This document shows positions 7,358 through 23,807 of a stretch of DNA of 33,873 nucleotides, piece by piece. Under the pieces are notes generated by a model, which was given only the letters and a program-made list of their open reading frames with translations, ran no database searches and was not told the origin of the DNA. The position numbers were made by a program, and so were the translations under genes. Positions within the stretch are counted from its first letter, which is position 1. Every line of letters starts with the position of its first letter. Source of the DNA: a virus. The stretch spans positions 1-33,873 of the IMG/VR virus record IMGVR_UViG_3300025154_000281. One strand, 5' to 3'.

Positions 7358-7822
7358 ATGAAACGATTGATTGCCGTTATCCTACTTCTCATCGTTGCGT
7401 GCCCGACGTGGGCACAGCTTTCTGACGCCGCGCTGGGGAAACCCAACAGCGTCACGCTTTCCGGGTCGAATAACACGGTCAAGGTCAGCACCGACGGCAA
7501 CACCGTCAAGGTTGATCAGACGACCGCAGGCGCTAACGATGTTGATACCGATTCCCTGGGAACCGGCCATATCGGAAGCGTTACGCTTGATGTCGGCATT
7601 GTCACGCCGGTATCAATCGGGACGCTTACCGCCGGAACCAAGTATATCGAGATCACCCCCAAAACCACAGCGCTTCTCGGTGGTGCCAGCTTGGCCACTG
7701 ATAGCGCGCGCCCGCTTACCGCCGGGACAACCTATACCTACAAGGTCAGCACTACCACCCCGGTTATGTATGTTCTGTCCACGGTAAGCACCACGACGGT
7801 TCACGTTGCCCATTACAAATAA
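7358..7822 (+). CDS. Signal-peptide protein in the head operon, function unknown
   Basis: A 154-aa protein with a classical Sec signal peptide: KR, then LIAVILLLIVACPTWA, with likely cleavage before Q. The mature part is rich in Thr, Ser, Gly and Val with beta-strand periodicity and no cysteine, like a decoration or fibre protein. ATG 7358 is preferred to ATG 7352 because AAGGAG (7344-7349) is 8 nt from the former and only 2 nt from the latter. It lies between the capsid and the DUF2190 gene, where head decoration proteins are normally found, so export is unexpected. I do not recognise a family. Confidence 0.75.
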   Translation: MKRLIAVILLLIVACPTWAQLSDAALGKPNSVTLSGSNNTVKVSTDGNTVKVDQTTAGANDVDTDSLGTGHIGSVTLDVGIVTPVSIGTLTAGTKYIEITPKTTALLGGASLATDSARPLTAGTTYTYKVSTTTPVMYVLSTVSTTTVHVAHYK

Positions 7823-7834
7823 GGAGCCGAAAAA

Positions 7835-8272
7835 ATGATTATGAAAAGAAATGTTGTCTTTCTTCTTGTTGCGCTGCTGTTTGCCAGCATCGCGTATGCT
7901 GCTACCAACTACGTTCAGGAAGGCGATGTTGTCACGCTTTCGTGGGCAACCACGTCCGTAACCGCCGGTGATCCCTGCATCAAATGCACCGCCAAGGCTA
8001 CCGGCGGAATCGTTGGCGTGTCCCTTACCGGAACCGGAACCGCCGAAGAGGCGCACCGCGTCGCCACAAAGGGCGTCTTTGATCTCAACGTCACCACGAC
8101 CAGCACCACCACGGTCGCCATTGGCGATTATGTCTATGCGGAGGTTGGTGGTGTCGAGGTCGGTATTGCCACGCTTACCGATGACCCAGCCGGCGTGATT
8201 TTTGGCCGCGCGCTTGAGGCCATTTCCGCCACTTCGACCACTTCGCGTATCAACGTCCTTCTCGGTCAGTAA
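7835..8272 (+). CDS. DUF2190-family capsid decoration protein with a signal peptide
   Basis: Residues from about 24 on (TNYVQEGDVVTLSWATTSVTAGDP... GVFDLNVTT... VAIGDYVYAEVGG...VIFGRALEAI...RINVLLGQ) follow the DUF2190 pattern, a small beta-barrel family found next to phage capsids and thought to be a capsid cement protein. Before this domain lies an added signal peptide (MKRNVVFLLVALLFASIAYA). Usual DUF2190 proteins begin directly at the ANxVQxGD segment, which here lies just after the predicted cleavage site, so the mature form would equal the normal protein. AAGGAG at 7821-7826 supports ATG 7835. Confidence 0.8.
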   Translation: MIMKRNVVFLLVALLFASIAYAATNYVQEGDVVTLSWATTSVTAGDPCIKCTAKATGGIVGVSLTGTGTAEEAHRVATKGVFDLNVTTTSTTTVAIGDYVYAEVGGVEVGIATLTDDPAGVIFGRALEAISATSTTSRINVLLGQ

Positions 8273-8291
8273 CTACCTCATCCCTCATCAA

Positions 8292-8317
8292 GAGGCGGGG
8301 GCTTCGGCTCCCGCCTC
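8292..8317 (+). promoter_or_regulatory. Strong UUCG-loop hairpin between head and head-completion genes
   Basis: GAGGCGGGGGC (8292-8302) pairs with GCTCCCGCCTC (8307-8317) around a TTCG loop: 11 pairs with one G-U. There is no T-run after it, so it is not a simple intrinsic terminator. It lies in the only sizeable gap between DUF2190 and the next gene. It may stabilise the upstream capsid/decoration mRNA 3' end or partly attenuate downstream expression. Confidence 0.6.
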
Positions 8318-8332
8318 GCCCGAAAGGCAAAC

Positions 8333-8668
8333 ATGACGCTCAAAACGCAAATGGAAACCGATGTCGGAACCGTCTTTTTTAACAATGACGAGTTTTCCGA
8401 GGACGTTTCCTACGCGGTTTACGGCGGGTCTACGAGCACAATCAAGGCAATTATCACGCCCGAAATTGACCTTGCAGAGTCCGACCCGGGCCAGGTTGCA
8501 CAAGGGCGGGCGTTAATCAAAGTTTCCGACCTTGCGAACCCAACCAGACATGATACGCTCACGACCGCTGCCGCCATTGTCTGGCGCGTCGATGATGTTC
8601 TCGGCGGGGATGGCTACGTGTGGACCTTGCAGGTAAGCACTGACCACCGGCCCGGGGTGAAGGCATGA
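8333..8668 (+). CDS. Head-completion/head-tail connector protein (gpFII-like position)
   Basis: A 111-aa protein beginning with the typical TLKTQMETDVGTVFFNNDEFSEDVSYAVYGG, as in small head-tail stopper proteins, then a beta-rich body (ALIKVSDLANPTRHDTLTTAA..WRVDDVLGGDGYVWTLQV). Lambda gpFII and related connectors are the same size and occur in this slot, between decoration and gpZ-like genes, and form the platform to which tails attach. AAAGG at 8323-8327 is the SD. The end overlaps the next gene by 4 nt (ATGA). Family assignment relies on pattern and order. Confidence 0.75.
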   Translation: MTLKTQMETDVGTVFFNNDEFSEDVSYAVYGGSTSTIKAIITPEIDLAESDPGQVAQGRALIKVSDLANPTRHDTLTTAAAIVWRVDDVLGGDGYVWTLQVSTDHRPGVKA

Positions 8669-9387
8669 GCGTCTTCAAGATTGACGTTTCGGTTGAATCC
8701 AGAACGCAAGATAATTTCATGGCAAAAGTTTTGTCGGAAGCCATTGCTAACCCTGCTCTTGCACAGAAAAAGATCCTCGAAGCTAAGTCAGCTTTCGACG
8801 GCGTTCGCCGCCGGGCTCTGTATTCCACCGGGAAAGTCTTGCGGTTGGCGTTTCGCGCGGCGATTGAGACAAACAAATACGGCTACAAATACAAAAAACA
8901 TTCCAACTGGTTCGGGTTGGGCGTTGATGCTGACTGGACGCCGTTGACGAGACGATACCCGGCAAACAGATTTACAGGGAAAAAAGCCGAGAAAAGAAAA
9001 AAGGGTGAGCGATTTGGCACCATTTTTCCCGCCCCATTGAGCGCTGTTGATCGGCCTTTCTATCGTTCGCGCGGGATCTACACCAGCTTGGTTGATACGA
9101 AAGAAGGATCTCTCAAGTTTGGCGTCAATCCTGGTCTCAGAGGAACAACCTACAACGTCAAAGTTTTCCAGTTCCTTCAGGACGGCGGCCCGTCCATCTT
9201 CCGAGAAAAAGACAATCAGGAAAAGATGCGGCGATACCTTGCCGGGCTTGGTCTGATCATGCGGAAAGGCACTAGGCACGAAGTCGAAGGCAGGCCGATT
9301 ATGCAATCCTTCATCAACGACATCAACCCGCAGGCTGTCTATGAGCAGAAATACCTAGAAAAATTCGAGGATACGGTCTATGTCTGA
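8665..9387 (+). CDS. Tail completion/minor tail protein, gpZ-like
   Basis: A 240-aa protein in the gpZ slot. The N-terminus is helical (NFMAKVLSEAIANPALAQKKILEAKSAFDGVRRRALYSTGKVLRLAFRAAIE); the middle is rich in Lys and Arg (FTGKKAEKRKKGERFG). The later section has KVFQFLQDGGPSIFREKDNQEKMRRYLAGLG and ends with EGRPIMQSFINDINPQAVYEQKYLEKFEDTVYV, similar to the end of HK97 gp10/lambda Z-type proteins (GRPFIxPAF-like). Such proteins help couple the finished tail to the head. Both ends overlap neighbours (4 and 8 nt). Confidence 0.65.
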   Translation: MSVFKIDVSVESRTQDNFMAKVLSEAIANPALAQKKILEAKSAFDGVRRRALYSTGKVLRLAFRAAIETNKYGYKYKKHSNWFGLGVDADWTPLTRRYPANRFTGKKAEKRKKGERFGTIFPAPLSAVDRPFYRSRGIYTSLVDTKEGSLKFGVNPGLRGTTYNVKVFQFLQDGGPSIFREKDNQEKMRRYLAGLGLIMRKGTRHEVEGRPIMQSFINDINPQAVYEQKYLEKFEDTVYV

Positions 9388-9826
9388 TTCGATTGAAACA
9401 ATCTGCGGGAACATCTTGACGGGCATTTCCAACTCGCCAAGTGTTGCGGCTTTCGTGACGGCAAACTTCCCCGGGAAAACGCTTCAACTCTATCTCGGGT
9501 TGGACGTTAACCAACTGCCAGTAGAAAGCATGGTGCCGTGGTGCGCGGCTATCCCGAGGTCAACCGGACGCGACGACAACAACCAAGCACGTCAGCGGAA
9601 TATCACCATGGGCATCGTCATCAAAAGTGCCACCGTCACGGACGTAGGTGCTTATACCAAAATGGCCGGGTATGGCCTGATGGAACAGCTTGCCGAGCTT
9701 ATCCAGGACAACATCTTGAACACGCTCAACGGCAACATTTTGAACCTTTCCAGCATTGATTTTGAAGTTGACTTTCCATATTTCCGGTGTTCGTTTTCTT
9801 TCAACGTGCCGGAAGAAACGGATTAA
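9380..9826 (+). CDS. Tail terminator protein (gpU-like)
   Basis: A 148-aa protein in the position of lambda gpU, right before the tube protein. It has an amphipathic N-terminal helix (SIETICGNILTGISNSPSVAAFV), strands around RQRNITMGIVIKSATVT, a helix (AYTKMAGYGLMEQLAELIQDNIL), and a C-terminal strand pattern ending FPYFRCSFSFNVPEETD, as in tail terminators that cap the growing tube. The assignment is by order and predicted fold, not close identity. Confidence 0.65.
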   Translation: MSDSIETICGNILTGISNSPSVAAFVTANFPGKTLQLYLGLDVNQLPVESMVPWCAAIPRSTGRDDNNQARQRNITMGIVIKSATVTDVGAYTKMAGYGLMEQLAELIQDNILNTLNGNILNLSSIDFEVDFPYFRCSFSFNVPEETD

Positions 9827-9838
9827 AAGGAGAATAAT

Positions 9839-10867
9839 ATGGCTTTCCCAACCTCACCGACTACCGGCAAAAACGCAAAGGTTTTGATCAACAGCAACGA
9901 CGGGGCCTACGAGGCGTCAACCGCCATGACCGTGCAAACGACCTACACTTACAAGGGCGTGAGCTATGCGAACCGCGTCTATCTGTGGGGTTCGGGGAAA
10001 ACGCTGATCAACATGCGCCCCGCCATCGAGCCGCGAATTGACATCGACGGCATCATTGACGGGATCGTCTGCACCGTCACGGCCAGCAATGATGAGGTCC
10101 AAACCTCTGCGGGCACGATCCTGGTTGACAATGTCGTCACCACCGTTGCCGCCGATACGAGTATCGCCGTTACCCGGCCAGCTGCCGGTGAAGGCGCGTG
10201 GGTTGCTATCCACGTCCACAAAGGAACTCAGGCCGTCACTGCCACCAAAGGCACCGACACTTCCGGCTCTGCTGGTAAGGGCGGTCTTCTGACCACATAC
10301 GGCACTTCCGCCGGTCAACGTCCCCTCATTGCAACCACTGACCTGTTGATTGCTCTGATCCAACTGGACAACGGCGCGAAGCCTGTTACCAGCTCTGAAA
10401 TCTTTTCCTACGATCGGCAGACCGCAGACGTTGACGCGCAGGTTCTTCCCAACATCGGCGGGGTTCTGTTGCCTACCGCCCTTCCGGCGCTTCACGTTGG
10501 CCCGACTCGCCAGCCGGTGAAGATCACCGGATACTACCTTGACAACGCACTGGCCGAAATCGGGACGGCAAAATCCTGGAACCTCAACCCGTCTACCAAC
10601 GAGGTTTCAGACACCACGTTTTCGCGCGGGATCAGTATCACTGAGGTATCTTCGTGGGCTTTCACCTTTGAGCAGTTGGCCACCGATCCGAAGGCCAAGA
10701 ACGCCATCATTGACCGGCAGGGGTATGGTGCGGTCAGGCTGCAATATCCGAATGGTGGTTACTGGCAAGGGGCCTGCACTCTGGTTCCGTCGTTCGCGGT
10801 CGCGCCTGGCGCGTTAAACAGTATCAGCGTTTCCGGATCGCTGCTTGATGATCCGGTCTTCACCTGA
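9839..10867 (+). CDS. Major tail tube protein (gpV-like), with a large insert
   Basis: A 342-aa protein preceded by AAAAGGAG. The C-terminal part (KSWNLNPSTNEVSDTTFSRG, WAFTFEQLATDPKAKNAIIDRQGYGAVRLQYPNGGYWQGACTLV, ISVSGSLLDDPVFT) follows the tail-tube pattern of strand, acidic loop, W, and a final strand. An N-terminal/central Thr-rich region (about residues 60-165: ASNDEVQTSAGTILVDNVVTTVAADTSIAV...) looks like an added beta domain that would project from the tube. It makes the protein longer than simple tube proteins. It lies between the terminator and the gpG/gpGT frameshift pair, as expected. Confidence 0.8.
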   Translation: MAFPTSPTTGKNAKVLINSNDGAYEASTAMTVQTTYTYKGVSYANRVYLWGSGKTLINMRPAIEPRIDIDGIIDGIVCTVTASNDEVQTSAGTILVDNVVTTVAADTSIAVTRPAAGEGAWVAIHVHKGTQAVTATKGTDTSGSAGKGGLLTTYGTSAGQRPLIATTDLLIALIQLDNGAKPVTSSEIFSYDRQTADVDAQVLPNIGGVLLPTALPALHVGPTRQPVKITGYYLDNALAEIGTAKSWNLNPSTNEVSDTTFSRGISITEVSSWAFTFEQLATDPKAKNAIIDRQGYGAVRLQYPNGGYWQGACTLVPSFAVAPGALNSISVSGSLLDDPVFT

Positions 10868-10886
10868 TAATTTAAGGGGGTAAGGG

Positions 10887-11213
10887 ATGAGCAAGAAACA
10901 AGCGGTAAAGGTCTTCGGGCGGGATGAAATCTTGGCCCATGTCGAAACCAAGATTGAAAACGTGGAAGTCAACGGGTGGGGCGGGTGCGTTCGCATTCGC
11001 CCACCCAACTTCCAGGTGATCAGCAAGTTGAAACTGGACTACCCCGACGAGCGGGATTTTCAGTTTGCATTGTTGACGGCTTGCATGGTTGACCTTCAAC
11101 CCGACGATGTGCGAGCCATGATGACCGGGAACGGGTTGAGGTATGCCCAACTTCTCGACGCCGTTCTTGGGAAGGGAAGCCCGCTCAATGACGCTGCCGT
11201 GGGAAAGCAATAG
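10887..11213 (+). CDS. Tail assembly chaperone (gpG-like)
   Basis: A 108-aa protein between tail tube and tape measure, the slot of lambda gpG. The sequence (VFGRDEILAHVETKIENVEVNGWGGCVRIRPPNF...FQFALLTACMVDLQPDDVRAMMTGNGLRYAQLLDAVLGKGSP) fits small acidic/helical chaperones that coat the tape measure during tail assembly. Its last codons run through the slippery heptamer GGGAAAG at 11201-11207, three bases before the TAG stop. SD AAGGG at about 10880-10884 (taaGGGatgagc). Confidence 0.8.
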   Translation: MSKKQAVKVFGRDEILAHVETKIENVEVNGWGGCVRIRPPNFQVISKLKLDYPDERDFQFALLTACMVDLQPDDVRAMMTGNGLRYAQLLDAVLGKGSPLNDAAVGKQ

Positions 11214-11371
11214 AGCGCCTTGAATCTGATCCGGGATTCCTGGCGCTGGTTTCAATCGCTGCCGACGATGGCGTGAGTATCGCGGAGGTTATTTCCCGGG
11301 GGGAAAACGATTCGATAAATCGGATAGCTTTGATGGAGCTGAGGCGAAGGGAGCGCAAGAACAATGGCTGA
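10887..11371 (+). CDS. gpGT-like frameshift product (-1 shift at 11201-11207)
   Basis: A -1 slip on GGGAAAG (zero-frame codons GGA AAG) joins residues 1-107 of the gpG-like protein to a 54-residue extension read from 11207: AIERLESDPGFLALVSIAADDGVS, then SRGENDSINRIALMELRRRE, ending at TGA 11369-11371. The total is 161 aa. The extension has no start codon of its own, fills an otherwise non-coding gap of about 150 nt, and its stop overlaps the tape-measure ATG. Lambda uses the identical heptamer to make gpGT, which binds tail tube protein while the G part coats the tape measure. Confidence 0.85.
11201..11207 (+). promoter_or_regulatory. Programmed -1 ribosomal frameshift site GGGAAAG
   Basis: The heptamer is in the correct phase (G GGA AAG) and lies just before the gpG-like stop codon. 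The -1 frame is open for 54 codons beyond it. Identical to the lambda G/T slippery site. Confidence 0.85.
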
Positions 11372-13151
11372 AGGCCTTGTCAGGATCGTTATCAACGCGG
11401 TTGATAAGTATTCTGGCGTTCTTACCGGCTTGAATCAGGGCCTTGAGCTTGTCGGCAAGGGCTTTTCCTTCGTAACGAATGTTTCCGGGAAATTCTTCGA
11501 CGCCCTTGGCTCCGGCCTGGATCTTGCCGTGAAAGGCGGGAATTTCGCGGAGATAAACGCCCAGCTAAACAATGTCGCCAAGAGCTTTAACATTAGCTCA
11601 AAATCTGTTGTGGACTCGCTTGACGACATAACACAGAATATGCTCAAGCTGCCAGAGCTGGCCATGCTTGCCGGGCGTGGAATCACCGCTGGTCTTGATG
11701 AGACGCAGCTCGAAAAGGTTTTCACCTTTGTCAAACGGCGCACAGAGGTTACGGGCGAATCTTTCACGGCAATGAGTGAACAGATTTTTTCGGCTCTTCA
11801 GTCTGGCCGGTTCGCAACCATCAAGCAAATGGGTCTTCTGGTAGAAAAGGGCGATGATGTCGCCTCGATCATGCGGAAAATTGAGGATGCCACAAAAAAG
11901 TATGGTGACGCAGGATTCAACGCTGCCGACAAGGTAGCGGCATTATCCGCGCAGGCAGATAATTTCACAACAAAAATAGGCGTTGCGATCAACGATACGC
12001 CAAGGTTTCAGGCCATTCTCACAAAGCTGACTGACACGGTTGTTGATTTTGTGCAAGAGTTTGATACCGCCCCCGTCACCCGCTTTTTTGATTACGTGCT
12101 TCGAGTCGCTGAGAGCACGTTTAACGCATTTGCCCAAAACTTCCCGGGCATTTCTGCGATCTTTGATAATCTCTTCGGGGGCGGCACAGACTCGGCAAAG
12201 TCATTTACTCGGAATGTCGTGTCGTTAATATTCCAGCTAGTTACGGCTTCGGCAAAAGTAGTTAACCAGATAATAGACGTTATTCAGGCTGCAAATTTTG
12301 GCGACAATATCGGAGAAATAATTAGCATTATCATCAGGACCGTAACATTCGGAGCATCTAAATTGCTTCAAATAATAAACAGCATAGACAGATTTTTTGT
12401 ATCTGGAATACAAAAAATAATTGAAACGATAGCATCAATAGCCGAGAATAACCCAAGCATTGCTGAACTTATCGGCATTAACCCGGAAGACTTGCGGGAG
12501 GTTCAAGCATCTTTAGAAAAGCAAACAGAATTTTTTAATTCCACCACTGAAAAAATAAGCAAAAGTCTTGAACAAATAGGGCTATCGTCTTCTGATGTTT
12601 TTGAGGACATGAATAAAAATCTAGAGGGTTGGAAAATAGACCTTGGTGATATTGCAAAAGGGCAAAAAGAAATAACTGACTCCATTGATACCATTTCCTA
12701 CGAGAAGCCTATCGCCAGCGCTATTAAGTCTTTTGAGGCGGTAAAGCCTGCTGTTGAAGCAACGACAGAGGCTATCAGCAACGCCGTGAAGAAATCAGCA
12801 CTATCAGCCAAGGATACTATTTCCGCCCTGGAAAATGCCTTGACCGATATTGAGAAGCGGTTGAACCGTGGCACAGTTGTTGAAGGCGGACGGTTTTTCA
12901 CTGGCTTAGAGCGTGAAGCCATGCTCAAAGAAGCCGAAGAGCTGCGGGACAAGATCAAGAAGGCAATCGGCGGTGATCTCAGTATTACCGCTGACGTCGG
13001 GAAGGGGACCGGGTTGGAAGAGGAAATCAAGTCCTACCTTGCTTCCGTAAACTGGCCGTCCGAGTTTCGCGCTATGGGCGAGTTCCTTCTTAATTTCGTG
13101 CTGCAAAAAGCCAGGGGCGAGCGCGTCCCCTTCGCGCTGATCACGCAATGA
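11364..13151 (+). CDS. Tail tape-measure protein
   Basis: A 595-aa protein directly after the frameshifted chaperone. It is largely helical with long hydrophobic stretches (ISIIIRTVTFGASKLLQIINSIDRFFVSGIQKIIETIASIAENNPSIAELIG) and coiled-coil parts (ALSAKDTISALENALTDIEKRL). The N-terminal region (VINAVDKYSGVLTGLNQGLELVGKGFSFV) is typical of phage tape measures that begin with a sliding alpha-helical domain. At roughly 1.5 angstrom per residue it would set a tail of about 90 nm. The central part (about 12230-12700) is clearly AT-richer than its surroundings, suggesting exchanged DNA. SD GGGAG at about 11349-11353. Confidence 0.9.
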   Translation: MAEGLVRIVINAVDKYSGVLTGLNQGLELVGKGFSFVTNVSGKFFDALGSGLDLAVKGGNFAEINAQLNNVAKSFNISSKSVVDSLDDITQNMLKLPELAMLAGRGITAGLDETQLEKVFTFVKRRTEVTGESFTAMSEQIFSALQSGRFATIKQMGLLVEKGDDVASIMRKIEDATKKYGDAGFNAADKVAALSAQADNFTTKIGVAINDTPRFQAILTKLTDTVVDFVQEFDTAPVTRFFDYVLRVAESTFNAFAQNFPGISAIFDNLFGGGTDSAKSFTRNVVSLIFQLVTASAKVVNQIIDVIQAANFGDNIGEIISIIIRTVTFGASKLLQIINSIDRFFVSGIQKIIETIASIAENNPSIAELIGINPEDLREVQASLEKQTEFFNSTTEKISKSLEQIGLSSSDVFEDMNKNLEGWKIDLGDIAKGQKEITDSIDTISYEKPIASAIKSFEAVKPAVEATTEAISNAVKKSALSAKDTISALENALTDIEKRLNRGTVVEGGRFFTGLEREAMLKEAEELRDKIKKAIGGDLSITADVGKGTGLEEEIKSYLASVNWPSEFRAMGEFLLNFVLQKARGERVPFALITQ

Positions 13152-13534
13152 TAACGATATTTCCGACAACTGCATCCGGTTTAACAGCTACTTCATACCG
13201 GCTATCTATCCCGCATGGCGAAGGGTTCAACCTCGGGAAAGAGCGGCCGGAATCTGTTGCTACAAACCTGGACGGCAGCGCTACGGTAACGACATGGGCA
13301 CACTCAATCACCGGCCATATCACGTCAATAACCGTGGATCTGACCGAGGCGCAATACACGGCGCTGCGCCTTATCGCCGAACATGCTACCGTATTAGAGT
13401 GGGTTATGACGATCTACAACAGGACGTTTCAGACCGCTGTATCAATCGTATCAGCGGTCCCCGTGGTTCGTTCTGGCGCTCCGTATTGGCGCTGCTCGAT
13501 CCGGTTTACCATCGTGTCTGAATTGCACAGGTGA
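13148..13534 (+). CDS. Minor tail protein after the tape measure
   Basis: A 128-aa protein whose ATG overlaps the tape-measure stop (ATGA). It is mainly beta-rich (SYRLSIPHGEGFNLGKERPESVATNLDGSATVTTW, HITSITVDLTEAQYTALRLIAEHATVLEWVMTIYN, YWRCSIRFTIVSE). The size and position match small tail-tip proteins such as lambda gpM or a distal tail component. I cannot prove the family from sequence alone. Confidence 0.6.
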   Translation: MITIFPTTASGLTATSYRLSIPHGEGFNLGKERPESVATNLDGSATVTTWAHSITGHITSITVDLTEAQYTALRLIAEHATVLEWVMTIYNRTFQTAVSIVSAVPVVRSGAPYWRCSIRFTIVSELHR

Positions 13535-13540
13535 GGAAAA

Positions 13541-14725: not shown

Positions 14726-15158
14726 CACGCCTAAAATAAACACCTACGTCACCAACGCTTCAGACGTGCGCGTTAGCATCCTGAAGTTCCACCCGACCAT
14801 CGGGACGCCGACCCCTGCGCTTTCACTTCGGCTCTATAATGGTGAGGTCAGCCAGGGGACAACTGCCAACTTGCTTTTTGCCATTCGCGCCGACCTGCTT
14901 CGAGAAGCGCCGGCATGGGAAGAAACCGAGGAAAGCAACGCTAACGGAACTGAATTGATGACCGAATCGTGGTTAGAGATCAGCACCGACGGCGGATCAA
15001 CTTGGGCAGGCATTGATGAGTATGCTTCTGGTGGCGTTGATCTCGGGGCCGTTGCTGCCGGTGCGTATGCCGCGTTTCATGCGCGGGTGAACACGCCCGC
15101 AGGCGCGTCTACTTTGGGCGAATGCAATTTCGCGCTTGTGGTGAGGTCTCGCCCATGA
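14718..15158 (+). CDS. Tail-associated hypothetical protein
   Basis: A 146-aa protein. The frame has no early ATG; TTG 14718 follows GGGAGA (14704-14709) and overlaps the preceding stop. The composition is beta-rich, with IKTY-like N-terminal sequence (KINTYVTNASDVRVSILKFHPTIGTPTPALSLRLYNGEVSQGT) and WLEISTDGGSTWAGIDEYASGGVDLGAVAAGAYAAFHARVNTP, like beta-sandwich tail-tip proteins. The Wx(I/V)SxDGGxxW motif is common in secreted or adhesive beta folds. Function unknown. The stop overlaps the next ATG (15155-15158). Confidence 0.6.
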   Translation: MPSTPKINTYVTNASDVRVSILKFHPTIGTPTPALSLRLYNGEVSQGTTANLLFAIRADLLREAPAWEETEESNANGTELMTESWLEISTDGGSTWAGIDEYASGGVDLGAVAAGAYAAFHARVNTPAGASTLGECNFALVVRSRP

Positions 15159-16054: not shown

Positions 16055-16063
16055 GAGCATCGA

Positions 16064-16390
16064 ATGTCATTCACTTGGACTTTAACAAATGCCTTCATCG
16101 CCGCTGGCGTTGGTGCGCCTTTGGATACTGAACTGATCGAGGAAATACAGGACAACATTGACCTTTTGGGCGGCGTAGCCGCAGGGACTTCGACGTTCAA
16201 TTCCCTGACCGGCAGAGCAATTACGATTGCTGACCAGGGCGGGGTTGCGTATCATGTCAGCATCACGCCAACGGAAAACCCTGGCGGGAACCTCGGGGAA
16301 GTCTGGGTTGTGAACAACAGCGCCACGCAATTTACGGTATACAACGGTGGGACCGCCACAACGGCATTCTCTTACAAGGTGCTCGGATGA
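16064..16390 (+). CDS. Small tail-fibre-associated protein
   Basis: A 108-aa protein, SD AGGAG at 16052-16056. The N-terminus (FTWTLTNAFIAAGVGAPLDTELIEEIQDNIDLLGG) is helical, and the rest is beta-like (AITIADQGGVAYHVSITPTENPGGNLGEVWVVNNSATQFTVYNGGTATTAFSYKVLG). This arrangement is common in small tail-fibre or fibre-connector proteins. It has no signal peptide, unlike the next genes. It ends in an ATGA overlap with the LamG gene. Confidence 0.55.
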   Translation: MSFTWTLTNAFIAAGVGAPLDTELIEEIQDNIDLLGGVAAGTSTFNSLTGRAITIADQGGVAYHVSITPTENPGGNLGEVWVVNNSATQFTVYNGGTATTAFSYKVLG

Positions 16391-17817
16391 TTCGATACGG
16401 GATAATTTTCCTCTTCCTAATCGCACTGCCAGTGTGCGGTGCGGTCGATGATTCCTATACCAGGGTTCTTCACCACTTCGACGGGGCCAGCGGGTCCGCC
16501 GTGATCGTTGACGAGCATTCAGATAACGCATGGACGGCCAGCGGCGGGGCGCTTCTAGACACCGGAAAACAGCGCTTCGGGGTGTCGTCATTATATTTCG
16601 ACGGCTCCGGAAGTTACCTCAGAAACCTTGCCTCTGACTCACGGTTTTCCAACGCCAGCGGCACCTGGACTTTCGAGGCATGGGTCTATCCGACCGCATA
16701 CAAGCCAATCCGGACAACGCTTTTTTCCTATCTGAACGGCTCATCTTTTTTGCAGGCGTTTTTTAACAGCTCGGGTGTGCTGTGGATCTCAACCAACGCG
16801 GAAGCACCGTCAGGTCAACTCATGGGATCTACCGGTGTCTCTACCGGGCAATGGTCCCATGTCGCGTTGGTGGGACAGGTTGGCACCGTCACGGCATACA
16901 TCAACGGCGTTCCAATCGCATCGCATACGTTGACATTGCCGAACGTGGCGTCAGGAACGTTTGACATGGGATGGGATGCTGCTCAAGTTTCAGGCCGAGA
17001 ATTTACCGGGTGGATGGATGAGATACGCTTTTCCAACGGCATCGCGCGGTATACCGAGGCATTCACGCCACCAACAAAAGCATTTTCCCCACCAATGCCT
17101 AATCTTGCTTTTGCGCCTGGCGGGAAAATCAATTTCAACATTTCTGCCCCGCTTCCGTTCCGGTCGCTCATGCACTTTAACGCCTCGACAACGCTTGACG
17201 CTTATGCGCGCGAATGGATTGACCCGCCGTTTATCGCCAATGATCCGGAAATTTCGACCGACGTTTATAAGTTTGGCGGTGGGGCGCTGTCGCTGCTGAC
17301 GGCAGCAAGTGCCGTCATATCTTCTGACGACGCGCCAACGGCCAGTGGGACAGAACCGTTTACGTTTGATACGTGGTTCCGGATCGCGACTTATTCCGCG
17401 ATTGCAGGGCAAAGATTTTACCCGACATGGGACACTGGCGGCTTTGCCGTGAGGATAGACACCCCTCTTGCCGGTGGTGACATAAGCATTTTGGACGGTG
17501 CCGTCGTCATAGCATCATACACCTTCCCGGCATTTCCGGGCGATGAATGGCACCACTTGGCAGTAACATATGACGGGTCGGACGCCGATCTCTATTACGA
17601 CGGGGATTTAATTGCATCGGGTGCGTATGCAGCTTTTGGCAATTCGGGACAGGTCAACGCCGGGTATATGGTCAACATCAGCGGAAGCGCTAATATGCAG
17701 CGATACCTTGACGAATGGCGGTTTTCTGATTCTATTTTATATTCCGGAAATTTCACCCCACCGATTTCTGAAACTGCATCAGAAACTTTTGTCGGTCGGA
17801 TAAAATTTTACCCATGA
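16387..17817 (+). CDS. Exported double-LamG (concanavalin-like) adhesin
   Basis: A 476-aa protein with a signal peptide (MIRYGIIFLFLIALPVCG) and two LamG/concanavalin-like jelly-roll domains, about residues 27-220 (TRVLHHFDGASGSA...YFDGSGSYL...GTWTFEAWVYP...WSHVALVG...GWMDEIRFSNGIARYTEAFTPP) and 255-465 (FRSLMHFNAS...FTFDTWFRI...WHHLAVTYDGSDADLYYDGDLI...YLDEWRFSDSILYSGNFTPP). Such domains bind carbohydrate or protein surfaces and occur in tail fibres. The signal peptide is not expected for a virion protein. It overlaps both neighbours by 4 nt. Confidence 0.85.
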   Translation: MIRYGIIFLFLIALPVCGAVDDSYTRVLHHFDGASGSAVIVDEHSDNAWTASGGALLDTGKQRFGVSSLYFDGSGSYLRNLASDSRFSNASGTWTFEAWVYPTAYKPIRTTLFSYLNGSSFLQAFFNSSGVLWISTNAEAPSGQLMGSTGVSTGQWSHVALVGQVGTVTAYINGVPIASHTLTLPNVASGTFDMGWDAAQVSGREFTGWMDEIRFSNGIARYTEAFTPPTKAFSPPMPNLAFAPGGKINFNISAPLPFRSLMHFNASTTLDAYAREWIDPPFIANDPEISTDVYKFGGGALSLLTAASAVISSDDAPTASGTEPFTFDTWFRIATYSAIAGQRFYPTWDTGGFAVRIDTPLAGGDISILDGAVVIASYTFPAFPGDEWHHLAVTYDGSDADLYYDGDLIASGAYAAFGNSGQVNAGYMVNISGSANMQRYLDEWRFSDSILYSGNFTPPISETASETFVGRIKFYP

Positions 17818-17825
17818 GGGAACGC

Positions 17826-18434
17826 ATGAAAAATAAAATTGTTGTTTTGATCTTCTTATTGTCCATTGGCCCGGCTTTCGCGGGTAGCGTTGCCTCAATA
17901 CCAGCTAACATGAGCCTTCGCGGAATCGCTGATTGGGCTCTTTCTGGCGGGCACATTGGCAGCGGCACAGGCGCGATACCAACGCCCAACGCAACCGGGG
18001 CGGTATACATCGACATCAGCACACCGACAACGCCGATACTCTACTACTCTACCGACGGGGCCAGCTTTACGGTTGTTGCCAGCGGTGGCGGAAGTGGAAT
18101 TTCCACTCACTCGAATTTGCTCGGGCTTGACTTCGCTGACGCAGGGCATACCGGCTTTGCCAGCGAGACAACGGTAAACAACCACATCGCCGACACGGTT
18201 GACCCACACGGCGCGTCAATGACTGTGACAGAGGTTGTCAACGTAGGTGTCGGGTCGTTTTCCGGGTCGATTGAATCGACGGCTACCGGGGTTGTCAAGA
18301 TCTCGTCATACACCGTAATCATCCCCGAATCAGCGACACCATCAGCCGTGATTGCAACGGGGACTTTGTGGTATGATAGTAACGTGAACGCTTTGAAATG
18401 CTACGATGGCAGCGCATGGAACGCGCTCTGGTAG
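17826..18434 (+). CDS. Exported tail-fibre-like protein
   Basis: A 202-aa protein starting with a signal peptide (MKNKIVVLIFLLSIGPAFA). ATG 17826 is chosen over 17814 because GAGGGA at 17815-17820 precedes it. The middle contains the fibre motif NNHIADTVDPHGASM, and the C-terminus (TLWYDSNVNALKCYDGSAWNALW) is the widespread short fibre-tip pattern LWYDxxxNxLKxYDGxAWxxL. These features indicate a tail-fibre or adhesion role. Export is predicted only from the N-terminus. Confidence 0.75.
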   Translation: MKNKIVVLIFLLSIGPAFAGSVASIPANMSLRGIADWALSGGHIGSGTGAIPTPNATGAVYIDISTPTTPILYYSTDGASFTVVASGGGSGISTHSNLLGLDFADAGHTGFASETTVNNHIADTVDPHGASMTVTEVVNVGVGSFSGSIESTATGVVKISSYTVIIPESATPSAVIATGTLWYDSNVNALKCYDGSAWNALW

Positions 18435-18454
18435 ATGAAACAATGGAGGCAACC

Positions 18455-18979
18455 ATGAAAAAACTATTTATTCTCGCGCTGGTTCTCGGCGTTTCCTGCG
18501 CTTTCGCTGAGGGTGTCCCCAGCCCGGCCACGCCTCGCTTGCAGATTGATTCTGACGGAACACTTGTTAGCCCGACGAACCCATTGCCGACAACCGCAAC
18601 CATAGCGTCAGCTACTTTTACCCCTGCCGGTGCTCTTGATGTCACCCCTCAGATCGTGGACGACAGCGGGAACATCGTGGACATGCCCGGCACCGCTTCC
18701 GGCGTCTACACGATCCCGAGGCCCTACGACACGGCATCAACTACCATTGGGTCATTTACCATTACGGCATACACCATGCCGCTTAAAAGCGGGTGTCAGA
18801 CGATCAGCGTCACTCTCACGCAGGCCGACAAGGAGGCGTGGTTTGCCGTCAATGCCGATCCAACGGTAGGCAACGGGTATCCGTTCCATACCAACGTCGA
18901 GGTTTCCAACCTAAACCCCGGAGACGTGCTTAAATTCATCGCTTCCGAAACCATCGGGGCGTGTTGGATTCAGAGGTGA
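18455..18979 (+). CDS. Exported hypothetical protein
   Basis: A 174-aa protein with signal peptide MKKLFILALVLGVSCAFA. TGGAGG (18444-18449) precedes ATG 18455; the same frame opens at 18398, but that is inside the upstream gene. The mature part is Thr/Pro-rich with beta character (SDGTLVSPTNPLPTTATIASATFTP...YTIPRPYDTASTTIGSFTITAYTMPLKSGCQTISVTLTQADKEAWFAVNADPTVG). It may be a fibre or surface protein. No family recognised. Confidence 0.7.
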   Translation: MKKLFILALVLGVSCAFAEGVPSPATPRLQIDSDGTLVSPTNPLPTTATIASATFTPAGALDVTPQIVDDSGNIVDMPGTASGVYTIPRPYDTASTTIGSFTITAYTMPLKSGCQTISVTLTQADKEAWFAVNADPTVGNGYPFHTNVEVSNLNPGDVLKFIASETIGACWIQR

Positions 18980-18984
18980 GAGCG

Positions 18985-20973
18985 ATGACGACATCGAAAC
19001 GATGGATTATTTTCTTCCTGTTTCTCGGGGCTATCGCGTTCTGCCTGCCTGACCTGTTCGGGTATTCGGTCGAGGCCGACAAAAATTTCGATTGGGGCGC
19101 AAACCGGAAATCAAAAAACCTATCAGACGTTGCAAGCGCCACGGTTGCCCGCGAAAACCTGGATGTCTACAGCCGCACAGAATCGGATGCTCTCGCGGCT
19201 CAATCTACTCTCCGATACAGTTTTACAGAAACCAACTCGGACATCGCAACCGATTCGGTCACTTACGAATACATGGCGACCTCCTCATCGGCCATCCAGG
19301 CGTCCGAATCTCTCAGTCTTGCGCTCACAAATAGCCTCCTGGACGCTTGGGTCACTCCTGCGGGGACGCCGAACCTCGACAAATTGGTCGCCGGAAAGTA
19401 TGAGGTTGAGTTTTACTTTTCCAAGACCGGCCCCGGAACAGCAAATTTATACACGGAATTGTGGGGATTTGCCGCAGATGGAGCGACCGGAACAATCGTT
19501 GCCTCGTCCGCTGTTACCATCCTTTCTGGAACCATTGATAAACAGCTTTCAATTTCCAGGATCACCCTTTTGATGGACGCACAAATGCTTCATTCGGATC
19601 GCCTGGCGCTCAAGCTCTACGGATACCGCTCAGGCGTTGCATCCATCACCATATGGTATGGTGGCACCACCGACTCATTTTTCGGCGTGCCGATCAGCCC
19701 GAGAAACTTCCTACGCGTTGATGGTTCCAATGCCGATACGGCGGCTGAGGTTCGCACCAATATCGGCCTTGGGTCTATGTCGACTCAAAACGCTGATACC
19801 GTTGCCATCACAGGCGGTGTCGCCACCCTAACCGGCCTGGAAATGAACGCCGGAAATATCGACCTAAACGGCAATTACCTTTCTGGTGATGGTGACTCCG
19901 AGGGTATCAGCATTGACATTGACGGCAACGTGGGGATGGGAATCCTCGACCCAACTTTCCTGAACGGTGGCGGGCTTGAAATCATGCGCCTTGCCACGGC
20001 AACCTTGCGCATTCAGAATTATAACGGCGGGAACAACTTCGAGCTGCACGTCAGTTCTGAAGCTGCTGGCATCCACTACTACGGCCTGAACAACTCGCCC
20101 CATTATTTTTGGATCAACGGCGGGCAGGTCTTTTCCCTCCGGACTGACGGAATAGCCTCGTTCAATTACTCGATCGAGGTAGCCGGGACGGTTGACGGTG
20201 TGGACTTGGCGGCGGCATCATCTGCGTTTGATGCCCATGTTATCGACAATTCCAGCGTTCACGGCGTTTCGGTTGTTGCATCTCAAGCTCACGTTGACGA
20301 GAGCATAGCGACCCATGCCGCTCTTATGGCTGCCCACGGCTCTACCGTAATCGCGTCGCAGAGCTATGTTGATGGCAGGATCACCGAGGCAGACGCGAGC
20401 TACACGCTATCCCTCAATTTTGCAACGGACTCGGTTGCCACTCACTCGATTTTGAACGCCACGCACGGATCGTCAGTGATTGCCAGCGCGGCACACGTCG
20501 ATCAGTCTATCGCTACTCACGCGTTGTTAATGGCCTCGCACGGATGCGCCGCCATTGCTTCCGAGGCATACGTTGACGCGGCGGTTGCCTCTGCCGGGTC
20601 AGGGGATGTTTCCGGCAACGAATATCGGCTTGCCGCTGATACCGCTTCTGAGCCAATCTACCTGAGCGGGACCGATCTCGGTATTGCCGTTGCTTCCGGT
20701 TCGGCTGTGCGCTTTGAGATTGATTTTATCGCCGTTGCCAGCGCCACCGACACAAAATGGGGTGGGAAAGTGCAGGGAATGGCCATTGCTTCCGGGGCTA
20801 TCGCCTACCTCGCCGGGTCGGAGGTGACGGATACCTGGCCGCTAGATCCCGGTGCGCTTGGTATCGTTGCCGGAATTGCCGGCGGAGAAGTTGGGCTTTA
20901 TGCCAGCGGGACGGCGGGAAGCCTGTGGAAAGCTGTGCGCGTGAAATCCTGGTCACTGGATGATGAGCCGTGA
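18985..20973 (+). CDS. Large exported tail-fibre-like protein with HG/VD repeats
   Basis: A 662-aa protein, the largest in this block. N-terminus: TSKRWIIFFLFLGAIAFCLPDLFG, a signal peptide or membrane anchor. The body is beta-rich, with typical fibre segments (FLRVDGSNADTAAEVRTNIGLG, VATLTGLEMNAGNIDLNGNYLSGDGDSEGISIDIDGNVGMG). From about 20220 to 20600 it contains repeats of the form HGxxVxASxxHVDESIATHAxLMAxHG, probably trimeric coiled-coil/stalk units. The end holds a beta domain. GTG 18961 in the same frame is rejected since ATG 18985 has GAGGTGAGAG before it. It resembles a host-recognition fibre. Confidence 0.75.
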   Translation: MTTSKRWIIFFLFLGAIAFCLPDLFGYSVEADKNFDWGANRKSKNLSDVASATVARENLDVYSRTESDALAAQSTLRYSFTETNSDIATDSVTYEYMATSSSAIQASESLSLALTNSLLDAWVTPAGTPNLDKLVAGKYEVEFYFSKTGPGTANLYTELWGFAADGATGTIVASSAVTILSGTIDKQLSISRITLLMDAQMLHSDRLALKLYGYRSGVASITIWYGGTTDSFFGVPISPRNFLRVDGSNADTAAEVRTNIGLGSMSTQNADTVAITGGVATLTGLEMNAGNIDLNGNYLSGDGDSEGISIDIDGNVGMGILDPTFLNGGGLEIMRLATATLRIQNYNGGNNFELHVSSEAAGIHYYGLNNSPHYFWINGGQVFSLRTDGIASFNYSIEVAGTVDGVDLAAASSAFDAHVIDNSSVHGVSVVASQAHVDESIATHAALMAAHGSTVIASQSYVDGRITEADASYTLSLNFATDSVATHSILNATHGSSVIASAAHVDQSIATHALLMASHGCAAIASEAYVDAAVASAGSGDVSGNEYRLAADTASEPIYLSGTDLGIAVASGSAVRFEIDFIAVASATDTKWGGKVQGMAIASGAIAYLAGSEVTDTWPLDPGALGIVAGIAGGEVGLYASGTAGSLWKAVRVKSWSLDDEP

Positions 20974-21110
20974 CCAGATTAAGCCTTGCTGAAATCGCGC
21001 TGTTGCTTGGCATCATTATTTCCGGTTGGTGCGTGGTGCTGTTCGGGGTTGTGCAGGCGCAAGACCGGCTCGATTCTGAAACGATTGAAAATATCGGAGG
21101 GACAAAATGA
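20970..21110 (+). CDS. 46-aa membrane or signal-peptide protein
   Basis: GTG 20970 overlaps the fibre stop (GTGA) and opens a 46-codon frame ending at TGA 21108, which itself overlaps the next ATG. The product is VTRLSLAEIALLLGIIISGW, then CVVLFGVVQAQ, then a charged tail (DRLDSETIENIGGTK). The hydrophobic stretch could be a membrane helix, or a signal peptide with an A-Q-A-like site. It may belong to the lysis set or to the exported series. GATGAG lies 2 nt before the start. Confidence 0.55.
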   Translation: MTRLSLAEIALLLGIIISGWCVVLFGVVQAQDRLDSETIENIGGTK

Positions 21111-21442
21111 TGGAGCGTATCATCCTTGTTGGCTTGCTGATAATCATTGTTTGCGGGGTCGCGTTCGGCGGCGAGGGCAAAGCCTATCGGCCAGAGGAAA
21201 ACAAAATCGAATTTTGGCAGCGTCTTTCGGCCATGAACCAAGCCATTTCTGAAGAGGCCGACATTGCCCGCAAGGTCGATCTGTTGCACCAAAAAGGCAT
21301 GGTCTTTGAGCGACTAATTGACCCGGAGGTCACTTCGAGAATTCCTGAGTTCCGGAAGCTAAAAAGCGCCGCCATCCTGGGCCAGCCAGACGAACTTGTT
21401 ACCGAGAGCGTTATTGACGTTATTATGGGGGCGGGGGAATGA
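21107..21442 (+). CDS. Exported or membrane-anchored helical protein
   Basis: A 111-aa protein with an N-terminal hydrophobic segment (RIILVGLLIIIVCGVAFGG) followed by a hydrophilic helical body (KIEFWQRLSAMNQAISEEADIARKVDLLHQKGMVFERLID). A start at ATG 21110 is 8 nt from GGAGGG (21096-21101) and may be the real one; ATG 21107 overlaps the upstream stop. The cysteine at the end of the hydrophobic run is not in a good lipobox context. Unknown family; possibly a spanin-like or surface protein. Confidence 0.6.
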   Translation: MMERIILVGLLIIIVCGVAFGGEGKAYRPEENKIEFWQRLSAMNQAISEEADIARKVDLLHQKGMVFERLIDPEVTSRIPEFRKLKSAAILGQPDELVTESVIDVIMGAGE

Positions 21443-21942
21443 AACGATTTTTCATCATTCTATTCTTCATCTTGTCGGTAGCACCTGGATTTTGCCAAGT
21501 CCGTGACCAGGGCCTGGGCCGAATCAAGACTGTCTCATTTTATGCGGTGGCATCATCCTCGACACCCATGGCTGCATATGGTGTGGCCACCTATACAAGC
21601 GTTATCGTTGACACCAACTCCGCCTACGACGGCCTCGCATCATATACAATCCCGCTCGCAGGCAGATACCGCGTTGAGTGGGTTGTTGCTTATTCTCAAA
21701 GCAGCGGGTCCGCCGTAAACGCAACATCTGAGTTGTGGAAAAATGGTGCGCAGATAGGCCAAAGCGGAACAATAGCCGTAGCGAATGCAACAGTAGCAGC
21801 ATTGGGTGGCAATATCGAGGTGGATTTATCTGCCGGGGATATCTTATCTGTAAAGCTATACACGTCTTCAACCACTGGGAACAAGTATGGAACCAGCTAC
21901 ACCATTGGGTATTTTAAGGTTGAGAAGATGATCGTGAGATAA
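21439..21942 (+). CDS. Exported C1q/TNF-like jelly-roll protein
   Basis: A 167-aa protein with a strong signal peptide (MKRFFIILFFILSVAPGFC) followed by a C1q-like domain. Typical pattern pieces are VIVDTNSAYDGLASYTIPLAGRYRVEWVVAY (the first strands with a central aromatic), then SELWKNGAQIGQSGTI, IEVDLSAGDILSVKLY and a final strand GYFKVEKMIV. These domains trimerise and are known at the tips of phage fibres and in secreted adhesins. It overlaps the preceding gene by 4 nt (ATGA). Confidence 0.75.
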   Translation: MKRFFIILFFILSVAPGFCQVRDQGLGRIKTVSFYAVASSSTPMAAYGVATYTSVIVDTNSAYDGLASYTIPLAGRYRVEWVVAYSQSSGSAVNATSELWKNGAQIGQSGTIAVANATVAALGGNIEVDLSAGDILSVKLYTSSTTGNKYGTSYTIGYFKVEKMIVR

Positions 21943-21960
21943 ATACAAGGGGGTAGCACT

Positions 21961-22056
21961 ATGACCCCATTCGAGCAACACGAGGACGGAGAAAAGCGGG
22001 CCTTGAGTATCTTCCAACGGCTCTACGTGTGGTTTCAAAATCTATTCCGAGGGTGA
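21961..22056 (+). CDS. 31-aa small protein
   Basis: AAGGGGG at 21948-21954 is an excellent SD, 6 nt from ATG 21961. The frame gives MTPFEQHEDGEKRALSIFQR, then LYVWFQNLFRG. It lies 18 nt after the C1q-like gene and 4 nt before the holin-like gene, so it is part of the operon. The amphipathic, aromatic C-terminal half could interact with membranes. No homologue is known to me. Confidence 0.55.
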   Translation: MTPFEQHEDGEKRALSIFQRLYVWFQNLFRG

Positions 22057-22060
22057 CAAT

Positions 22061-22267
22061 ATGGGCGAATGCCCTACCGGCGAGTGTAAGAACCATGCCA
22101 ATAGGATTACGGTATTGGAGGCTGATATGAAAGAAGTGCAGGCAAATCAAAGAGATCCGCGCTTATGGGTGGCGCTATTCGGTTTGGCTGGCGTTTGCTT
22201 CTCGACTATGGGAAGCCTTGCGGGCGTTCTGCTGGCGGCTTGGGCAAAGTCTCAGGGTTGGATGTGA
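22061..22267 (+). CDS. Holin-like small membrane protein
   Basis: A 68-aa protein: an N-terminal Cys-rich segment (MGECPTGECKNHANRITVLEADMKEVQANQ) with coiled-coil character, then a C-terminal membrane helix (LWVALFGLAGVCFSTMGSLAGVLLAAW) and a short tail. This topology and size resemble XhlA-like holins and related phage lysis proteins. It opens the presumed lysis cassette. GAGGGTG at 22050-22056 is the SD. A non-lysis membrane role is possible. Confidence 0.65.
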   Translation: MGECPTGECKNHANRITVLEADMKEVQANQRDPRLWVALFGLAGVCFSTMGSLAGVLLAAWAKSQGWM

Positions 22268-22271
22268 GCGC

Positions 22272-22694
22272 ATGAAATTATTTTTGAATAGCCTCTACGA
22301 CGACGGGACACGCACGCTGGGGGTATTGAGCGTCTATGACTGTCTCTCGAAGGTCTTCGAGTGCAAAACGCTTGAGCCGCCGTGGAAAGACAACCTCCCC
22401 CGCGTTTCCTGTATTCCTGCCGGCGAGTATTCCTTGATGGCCCGGTGGTCGGAGAAATACGGGGCTCACTACGAATTGATCGGCGTCCCCCACCGATCGC
22501 TGATTCTGTTGCATTGGGGCAATTTCCCCGAAGACACCGAGGGATGCGGTCTGACGGGGGAATCGTTTGTGGACTTGGACAAAGACGGGAGGCCCGATGT
22601 CGCCAAAAGCAAACAGACCTTTGAAAGACTCCGGAAAATCCTTGGAGACAAGCCCGCAAAAATCTATGTCTCCGGCTCGGGTCGAAAGGTGTGA
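22272..22694 (+). CDS. DUF5675-family protein, candidate lysis-cassette enzyme
   Basis: A 140-aa protein matching DUF5675: LGVLSVYDCLSKVFECKTLEPPWKDN (N-terminal strand set), SCIPAGEYSLMARWSEKYG, and the core HRSLILLHWGNFPEDTEGCGLTGES, followed by SKQTFERLRKILG. The His (H80) and Cys (C91) spacing recalls L,D-transpeptidase-type sites, though this is only an analogy. DUF5675 is common beside phage holins. An extra loop VDLDKDGRPDV resembles a calcium-binding EF-hand loop. ATG 22272 follows the holin-like stop by 4 nt; an earlier start at 22218 lies inside that gene. Confidence 0.75.
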   Translation: MKLFLNSLYDDGTRTLGVLSVYDCLSKVFECKTLEPPWKDNLPRVSCIPAGEYSLMARWSEKYGAHYELIGVPHRSLILLHWGNFPEDTEGCGLTGESFVDLDKDGRPDVAKSKQTFERLRKILGDKPAKIYVSGSGRKV

Positions 22695-22788
22695 GTGTGG
22701 TAAAGACGTTTGGCATGGGTCCGTGTGCGTGGTATGCTATCTCAGGATTTCCGCCGAAATGGCAAGAACAATCATAAGGAGAAAGTAA
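22666..22788 (+). CDS. 40-aa zinc-knuckle-like protein
   Basis: ATG 22666 opens a 40-aa frame that overlaps the DUF5675 3' end by 29 nt and whose TAA stop shares one base with the next gene's ATG (TAATG). The product has CEC (9-11) and CVVC (21-24) with Gly and aromatic residues between, a compact CxC...CxxC zinc-binding pattern. It ends in a basic tail (RTIIRRK) whose DNA supplies the next SD (AAGGAG). No strong SD of its own, so coupling is assumed. Confidence 0.5.
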   Translation: MSPARVERCECGKDVWHGSVCVVCYLRISAEMARTIIRRK

Positions 22789-23165
22789 TGGACACGTTGA
22801 AAGCTGTTTTGGTGTGGCTCTCGGAGCCAAACCACCTGGTTCTTTTTTCGATTTTGCTGATTCAGGTTTGGAAGCTAGCCCGGCCGTATCTGCCGGGGGG
22901 TGTTGTTTCCACGGGGGACAAGGTTGAGTCCTTCTTTTCGTGGGCTATTCCCGCGCTGTATCAAAATGTTCAGGGACTCGAAAAGGTCGGTGTTATTACG
23001 AAAAGCTCAAAGCTAGGAGCTTTCCTCGACCAGCTTTTCCTAGAGGCTCAAAAGCACAATGTCAAGTTGTCGGTCGAAGACGTTGCCAAGGCAAAGGCCA
23101 TTGTCGGCACCATTGCTGCTGGGGACAAGCCAGGAAACCCTACGCTACCCGCTCCCTCAAAGTGA
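22788..23165 (+). CDS. Membrane protein, possible second holin (LLH-like)
   Basis: A 125-aa protein with one N-terminal membrane helix (LVLFSILLIQVWKLARPYLPGG) and a hydrophilic helical C-terminus (QGLEKVGVITKSSKLGAFLDQLFLEAQKHNVKLSVEDVAKAKAIVGTIAAGDKP). This resembles LLH-type phage holins, which have the same topology and a similar size. AAGGAG at 22776-22781 supports ATG 22788. It may instead be a lysis regulator. The call is by topology and location. Confidence 0.55.
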   Translation: MDTLKAVLVWLSEPNHLVLFSILLIQVWKLARPYLPGGVVSTGDKVESFFSWAIPALYQNVQGLEKVGVITKSSKLGAFLDQLFLEAQKHNVKLSVEDVAKAKAIVGTIAAGDKPGNPTLPAPSK

Positions 23166-23240
23166 GCGCGGGCGGGTCGAACCTGGCGCAGAGGACCCGG
23201 GACGTGTGGGCCCGGATCGAATATGAAAGGCGGTGGTAGC

Positions 23241-23807
23241 GTGACGAAGCGGTTTACGACGGCTCTTCTTTTTGTCGTCTTTTCGTGCGCGTGCGTGTGG
23301 GCTGATTCTGAGCTTATTTCAGCTCAAACAAAAGTATGGCTCGATCAGGATTACCAGAATGACAACGGGCTTTCCGTGGCCCGCGACAACACGCAAATCA
23401 GGGCAGAGGTTGAATACACGAACGGCACCGGGTCATCTACCACGGTCGCGGACATCGAATGGATCACACAGCGCGAATTGGGCAGCGGGGCTACCGATAT
23501 TTTCGACCTTGCCGGTGGGGTGTCTGACCCGTTTGGCAACGCCCTTACGTTTGCCCGGGTAAAATCGCTGCACATCCGCAACCTATCTACTTCTGAATCC
23601 CTGACCATCGGAAACGCGACCGCCCCGGTATCGTTCCTCTCGCCGGCAACGGCAACGTATGCCCTTGAGCGCGGCGCGTTCGTGGTATGGGAATCGCCTT
23701 ATGCCGGTTTTACCGTGACTGCGGGGACGGGGGACTTGCTCAAAATCACCAATTCCTCGGGGGCTTCGACGACCTACAATATTAGGGTGGTAGGTAGCTC
23801 TCAGTGA
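23241..23807 (+). CDS. Exported beta-rich protein at the end of the late operon
   Basis: A 188-aa protein with a signal peptide (TKRFTTALLFVVFSCACVWA). GTG 23241 is preferred (AAAGG at 23226-23230) over ATG 23223, which would place six extra residues (MKGGGS) before the signal. The mature protein is beta-rich (ARDNTQIRAEVEYTNGTGSSTTVADIEWITQRELGSGATDIFDLAGGVSDPFGNALTFARVKSLHIRNLSTSESLTIG...AFVVWESPYAGFTVTAGTGDLLKITNSSGASTTYNIRVVGSSQ). The last part recalls beta-barrel fibre/capsid-decoration families (VKSLxIxN...). It ends shortly before the terminator. Confidence 0.65.
   Translation: MTKRFTTALLFVVFSCACVWADSELISAQTKVWLDQDYQNDNGLSVARDNTQIRAEVEYTNGTGSSTTVADIEWITQRELGSGATDIFDLAGGVSDPFGNALTFARVKSLHIRNLSTSESLTIGNATAPVSFLSPATATYALERGAFVVWESPYAGFTVTAGTGDLLKITNSSGASTTYNIRVVGSSQ

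Follow-up and report, generated by a model that had tools for sequence, protein, structure and literature searches.

We asked why a run of genes inside the morphogenesis operon of a tailed phage should begin with signal peptides of the Sec export type, when tailed-phage virions are taken to be completed in the cytoplasm. The operon lies in IMG/VR record IMGVR_UViG_3300025154_000281, a stretch of 33,873 bases known from environmental DNA only, which was analysed as a whole and is called the window here. Its + strand holds a siphovirus-like late operon with small and large terminase, portal, a fusion of protease and major capsid protein (MCP), head-tail attachment and tape measure genes, continuing with hub-like and fibre-like genes, after which come genes for a DUF5675 protein and a small membrane protein. 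By large terminase (TerL), the nearest relatives are distant (a Desulfuromonadaceae metagenome-assembled genome (MAG) at 52%, L100 at 49% and L101 at 48%). The MCP stands at ∼31% to isolates, and its query returned chiefly near-identical fragments in other metagenomes.

The original prediction had named nine proteins with such leaders, and all nine open reading frames (ORFs) are present at the starts given, namely 7358, 7835, 16387, 17826, 18455, 18985, 21107, 21439 and 23241. Each leader consists of one or two basic residues and a hydrophobic core of at least 10 residues, with an A-x-A-like end in nearly all, and a clear Shine-Dalgarno sequence stands just ahead of it in eight of the nine ORFs (it is weaker for 16387). 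To score the leaders we used a strict rule: an uncharged 10-residue core with a mean Kyte-Doolittle (KD) value ≥2.0, a net positive n-region, a cleavage-like site and a score ≥3.5. Eight of the 29 late-strand genes passed. When the codons of these genes were shuffled in 200 rounds, the number passing averaged 0.11 and never exceeded 1, which rules out chance. The tripartite n-h-c layout with small residues at −3 and −1 was thereby found in eight of the nine, the protein at 21107 failing on the net charge of its n-region (zero) alone. Mean KD values of the cores (2.8–3.9) exceeded those of several genuine Escherichia coli signals tested. In a 49-kb region of E. coli K-12, where we assigned the classes ourselves, the rule called 4/9 exported, 0/22 cytoplasmic and 1/9 membrane proteins; it is conservative, since five of the nine exported proteins were missed and no cytoplasmic one was called. 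By this rule the leaders are real, and they are best read as Sec/signal-peptidase-I export signals.

The run is also as unusual as had been supposed. With a similar rule, 9 of the 45 window ORFs were leader-positive, compared with 18/1287, 9/1084 and 30/1594 in other phage and prophage loci (host flanks included), or ∼1.4% of the ORFs there. The leader DNAs are unlike one another, as the original prediction held: their mean identity was 0.56, against 0.52 for codon-shuffled leaders, and duplication of a single leader is ruled out by these values. The leaders of 7358 and 7835 are not a sequencing error, since both are found without change in L002 and L003, contigs of metagenomes other than that of the window. 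A further leader, suggested with a 'perhaps' at 20970, did not hold up, as the ORF in question, at 20986, would start with TTG and overlap 21107, and is probably no gene. One point was absent from the earlier account: leaders are confined to surface and accessory proteins, and none of the core proteins (terminase, portal, MCP, tape measure and hub) carries one by the strict rule. Thus the protease–MCP fusion (5201..7345, +; phrog_4523, E 3e-139; PF25209) is without a leader.

What are the proteins behind the leaders? The gene at 7835 on the + strand encodes a Sec leader, MIMKRNVVFLLVALLFASIAYA (7835..7900), followed by a mature part (7901..8272, beginning ATNYVQEGD...) that is a capsid cement protein, as judged from PHROGs, hhalign, structure and synteny. 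The mature part matched phrog_122 (head decoration) with E 9e-7 over 117 residues, covering profile positions 2–105 of 109, a match that was missed when the leader was left on, and the hhalign profile–profile comparison agreed (E 3e-6); no match was obtained with the Pfam model PF09956 itself. An AlphaFold2 (AF2) model built from 29 sequences had a mean predicted local distance difference test score (pLDDT) of only 71, with helix 7–16 separate from the beta domain. The top rows of a fold search with it were capsid proteins of viruses, for the most part decoration or cement proteins (Z scores: HFTV1 10.7, phiCD508 gp48 10.1, Pam3 9.6, E217 8.5, TW1 7.7 and lambda gpD 6.1), and 102 residues aligned with phiCD508 gp48 at a root-mean-square deviation of 2.4. 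The gene is the second behind the protease–MCP fusion; in phages S1, LPPA33, yong2 and Dulem virus 34 the MCP gene is immediately followed by a cement gene without a leader. In profile, predicted fold, size and gene position, therefore, 7835 is like the Phage_cement_2/DUF2190 proteins (PF09956, phrog_122; Stenotrophomonas phage S1 gp9 and phiCD508 gp48) and differs from them by its Sec leader: among ∼55 further cement homologues we found no convincing leader, the hydrophobic N-terminus of the L123 homologue being doubtful.

The predicted cut of 7835 (AYA/ATNYVQEGDV, the slash marking the cut) aligns with the start of the leaderless cement protein (MAKNYVQEGKV) of L101, whose TerL is among the closest to that of the window, and cleavage would therefore restore a normal cement N-terminus. 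Codons 9–35 of 7835 contain no start codon that could serve as an alternative start. A search of the window for another cement gene, one without a leader, gave none, so that 7835 is the sole copy found there.

The gene at 23241 (23241..23807, +; GTG start; leader MTKRFTTALLFVVFSCACVWA/D) likewise has a leader in front of a protein of a phage family: the mature part is a member of phrog_22694 (E 4e-28), a family of the virion module. The profile match (E 2e-28) runs from residue 17 to 164 and covers positions 19–169 of 170, and the mature part aligns along its full length with this family, which includes proteins of Bradyrhizobium ppBeUSDA76-1 and Streptomyces Hiyaa gp9. Members occur in >80 phages, nearly all copies being leaderless, and the genes lie, where checked, in the structural module near the MCP or tail genes; 23241 differs by its leader and by a shift of the gene to the end of the late operon. 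The only other leaders in the family are those of L009 and L064, and the tree requires at least two leader origins. In the AF2 model the domain begins at residue 28 and most of the leader has a pLDDT <50. Fold searches returned only unspecific beta-sandwich and cupin matches, all with Z of ∼8 or less; these included the HFTV1 turret (7.7) and a KHP40 cement trimer (7.1), neither of which is decisive. Comparison of the mature parts with leaderless homologues had been proposed in the original prediction, and it strengthened the case, as in both 7835 and 23241 the leader is joined in front of a phage protein. For the same reason the origin from secreted host adhesins that had been suggested is unsupported for these two genes, in which a leader has been added to a member of a phage family; a host origin is still possible for 16387.

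The remaining seven leader genes, all on the + strand, are more varied. The protein of 16387 (16387..17817; MIRYGIIFLFLIALPVCG/A) has two LamG (concanavalin-like) stretches (PF13385, E 4e-28), which match LamG regions in PHROGs of large virion proteins (virion structural and baseplate). The 662-aa protein of 18985 (18985..20973; MTTSKRWIIFFLFLGAIAFC...) is tail-fibre-like and matched the tail fibre family phrog_4465 with E 5e-6 when the leader was left on and 1e-4 when it was taken off. At 21439 (21439..21942; MKRFFIILFFILSVAPGFC/Q) there is a TNF/BclA-like domain of minor tail proteins (phrog_746, E 1e-4); against PF18573 the match had E 3e-5, below the cut-off of that family. The other four have no family: 7358 (7358..7822; MKRLIAVILLLIVACPTWA/Q; 154 aa), with an alternative lipobox IVAC at C14–C15 and the same gene in L002 and L003; 17826 (17826..18434; MKNKIVVLIFLLSIGPAFA/G), fibre-like by eye; 18455 (18455..18979; MKKLFILALVLGVSCAFA/E); and 21107 (21107..21442; MMERIILVGLLIIIVCGVAFG/G; 111 aa). 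The case is weakest for the last: its gene is close to the lysis genes, and the product may have an ordinary function in the envelope or in lysis. BLAST of 7358, 17826, 18455, 18985 and 21439 against 50,697 phage records returned nothing. Outside the late operon, on the − strand, a tenth leader ORF (24560..24961; MSTRTIIVLLMLASVAAFG/Q, beginning MSTRTIIVLLMLASVAAFGQ...) encodes a Cys-rich protein of 133 aa and adjoins a second hydrophobic N-terminus at 24563–24162. The window also has short tandem repeats in coding frames at 33650–33873 and 26500–26793 (NGQVREVRE... and SGLRGDV...).

Are leader genes found in the structural modules of other phages? Prophages of both Omnitrophota and Nitrospirota contain them. 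In the phage contig L174 (TerL 32%), one lies directly behind the MCP gene and two more follow the tail terminator; the gene next behind the MCP also has a leader in L193 (Nitrospiria), and in L020 a tail-spike-like protein with a leader adjoins the connector gene. In Omnitrophota prophages the interval from TerL to portal holds two to three leader genes, LamG and fibre-like ones among them, and the fibre-like gene keeps its leader in five relatives despite differing leader sequence (a more distant repeat protein, in L292, is without one). Leader genes elsewhere, above all the Omnitrophota fibre-like genes, therefore suggest that the window is no one-off. A Sec leader as a general trait of the TerL group was rejected, there being none in 342 ORFs of Bacillota structural modules or 73 of Negativicutes ones. 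We did not count the tail-fibre/J-like protein at 16825 in L064, which passes the leader rule, as its N-terminus lies within the phrog_5616 profile. Nor did we count as virion proteins the secreted genes with PEP-CTERM-like C-termini that lie between TerL and portal of prophages L196 (12079–13053) and L206 (12128–12793), which look like PEP-CTERM-type secreted cargo. Pseudomonas phage LPPA33 (L099) has a protein with a type IV pilin-like N-terminus (GFSLIELMVVVVLLA) at 8573–9094 and a second leader ORF at 9166–9693, just ahead of the tail genes.

Our best reading, and a tentative one, is that surface proteins of this phage are exported by Sec, cleaved and joined to virions at lysis. Leaders would have been joined in front of virion-family proteins, at least those of 7835 and 23241. 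Head shell, portal, tail and tape measure would be assembled in the cytoplasm as usual, and the capsid cement, decoration, fibre and lectin-like proteins would be made as precursors and sent out by Sec, probably co-translationally because the leader cores are very hydrophobic. The precursors would be trimmed to normal N-termini and kept folded in the periplasm or envelope until lysis opens the cell, when virions would cross the exported pool and take up their surface proteins. That Sec and the peptidase act on the leaders is very probable, and the products would probably function outside the inner membrane; that they end on virions is the weakest step. We favour export and uptake because 7835 keeps the fold, place and N-terminus of a cement protein, no cytoplasmic form is apparent and occupancy can be incomplete. 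In JBD30, virions with and without cement occurred at 5:7, so that occupancy can be partial (PMC11445458), and this fits late addition. It is possible, and we propose it with greater reserve, that virion assembly is split across the inner membrane, cores being cytoplasmic and Sec-exported cement and appendages being added from outside, and that this arose repeatedly in phages of diderm environmental bacteria.

Several points weigh against export and uptake. Four of the nine products (7358, 17826, 18455 and 21107) have no family match, cement proteins of the phrog_122 type are not known to be added after lysis, and dilution at lysis could block uptake. In addition, the MCP itself (Phage_cap_E, E 5e-69) has a signal-peptide-like N-terminus and a good Shine-Dalgarno sequence in L256 (16538–17707), a prophage of a Deltaproteobacteria MAG, and post-lysis addition would not account for a leader there. 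This case may be an oddity, as only 1 of 27 MCPs sampled in that phylum had such a leader. Finally, a change of role is possible because cement may be dispensable.

This last point leads to the main and a serious rival, which we consider somewhat doubtful: that the Sec-exported proteins are no longer virion parts and, as recycled virion domains, coat the infected or lysogenic cell, where they would act as decoys, mask receptors, promote adhesion or exclude superinfecting phages. Most of these roles had been raised as possible in the original prediction, as had membrane-associated assembly. Cell surfaces often display LamG and TNF-like domains, Omnitrophota prophages carry similar leader blocks between TerL and portal, and cement can be dispensable (PMC11445458). 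However, 7835 retains the cement fold, position and N-terminus with no replacement cement found in the window, and all nine genes are in the late operon, where expression is expected shortly before lysis. A leaky use of the leaders, with a cytoplasmic fraction entering virions in the ordinary way and an exported part having a second role or none, seems unlikely. It would preserve the ordinary assembly route, and weakly targeted proteins are known, in general, to occur in two compartments, but the unusually hydrophobic cores argue for efficient targeting and the search of codons 9–35 in 7835 gave no leaderless isoform start.

Strong hydrophobic cores could also mean that uncleaved segments tether the proteins, and thereby the assembling particles, to the inner membrane, as prohead assembly is membrane-linked in phage T4. 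We regard such docking as very unlikely: a basic N-terminus followed by a core predicts a mature domain outside, away from cytoplasmic capsids, and the A-x-A-like sites in nearly all leaders argue for cleavage. Some or all of the leader genes might instead be unrelated lysogenic-conversion or lysis genes sitting in the late operon. Lysogenic-conversion genes occur in tail regions (lambda lom and Gifsy sodC), the modules of L196 and L206 contain PEP-CTERM-like secreted genes, 21107 is near the lysis genes and four products are without a family; yet 7835 and 23241 belong to virion families, with 7835 in its usual place, and we give this explanation very little credence. An artefact, whether from misplaced starts, N-termini hydrophobic by accident or faulty assembly, has a negligible chance of being correct in view of the shuffle null, the Shine-Dalgarno sequences and the identical leaders in other metagenome contigs.

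How, then, does the window compare with known systems? The filamentous phage coat proteins pIII and pVIII are virion proteins made with Sec signal peptides. Filamentous virions, however, assemble at the inner membrane without lysis, whereas the phage of the window is tailed, with terminase, portal, protease–MCP and tape measure; there is no inovirus-type extruded coat, and the likeness is limited to the predicted export of virion proteins. Lambda lom and Gifsy sodC are likewise signal-peptide genes within a late operon. They are not virion families, whereas window leaders sit on such families, 7835 and 23241 both being outside the lom/sodC type of cargo.

Our searches of the open-access literature turned up no account of a tailed-phage cement protein with a Sec leader, and we know of no description of tailed-phage virion parts being sent through the membrane before use. 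A cement protein that can apparently be made only with an export leader either breaks the rule of cytoplasmic assembly or performs another task at the cell surface. The cement protein of 7835 and its leaderless L101 homologue make a concrete test case, and either outcome would, to our knowledge, be new.

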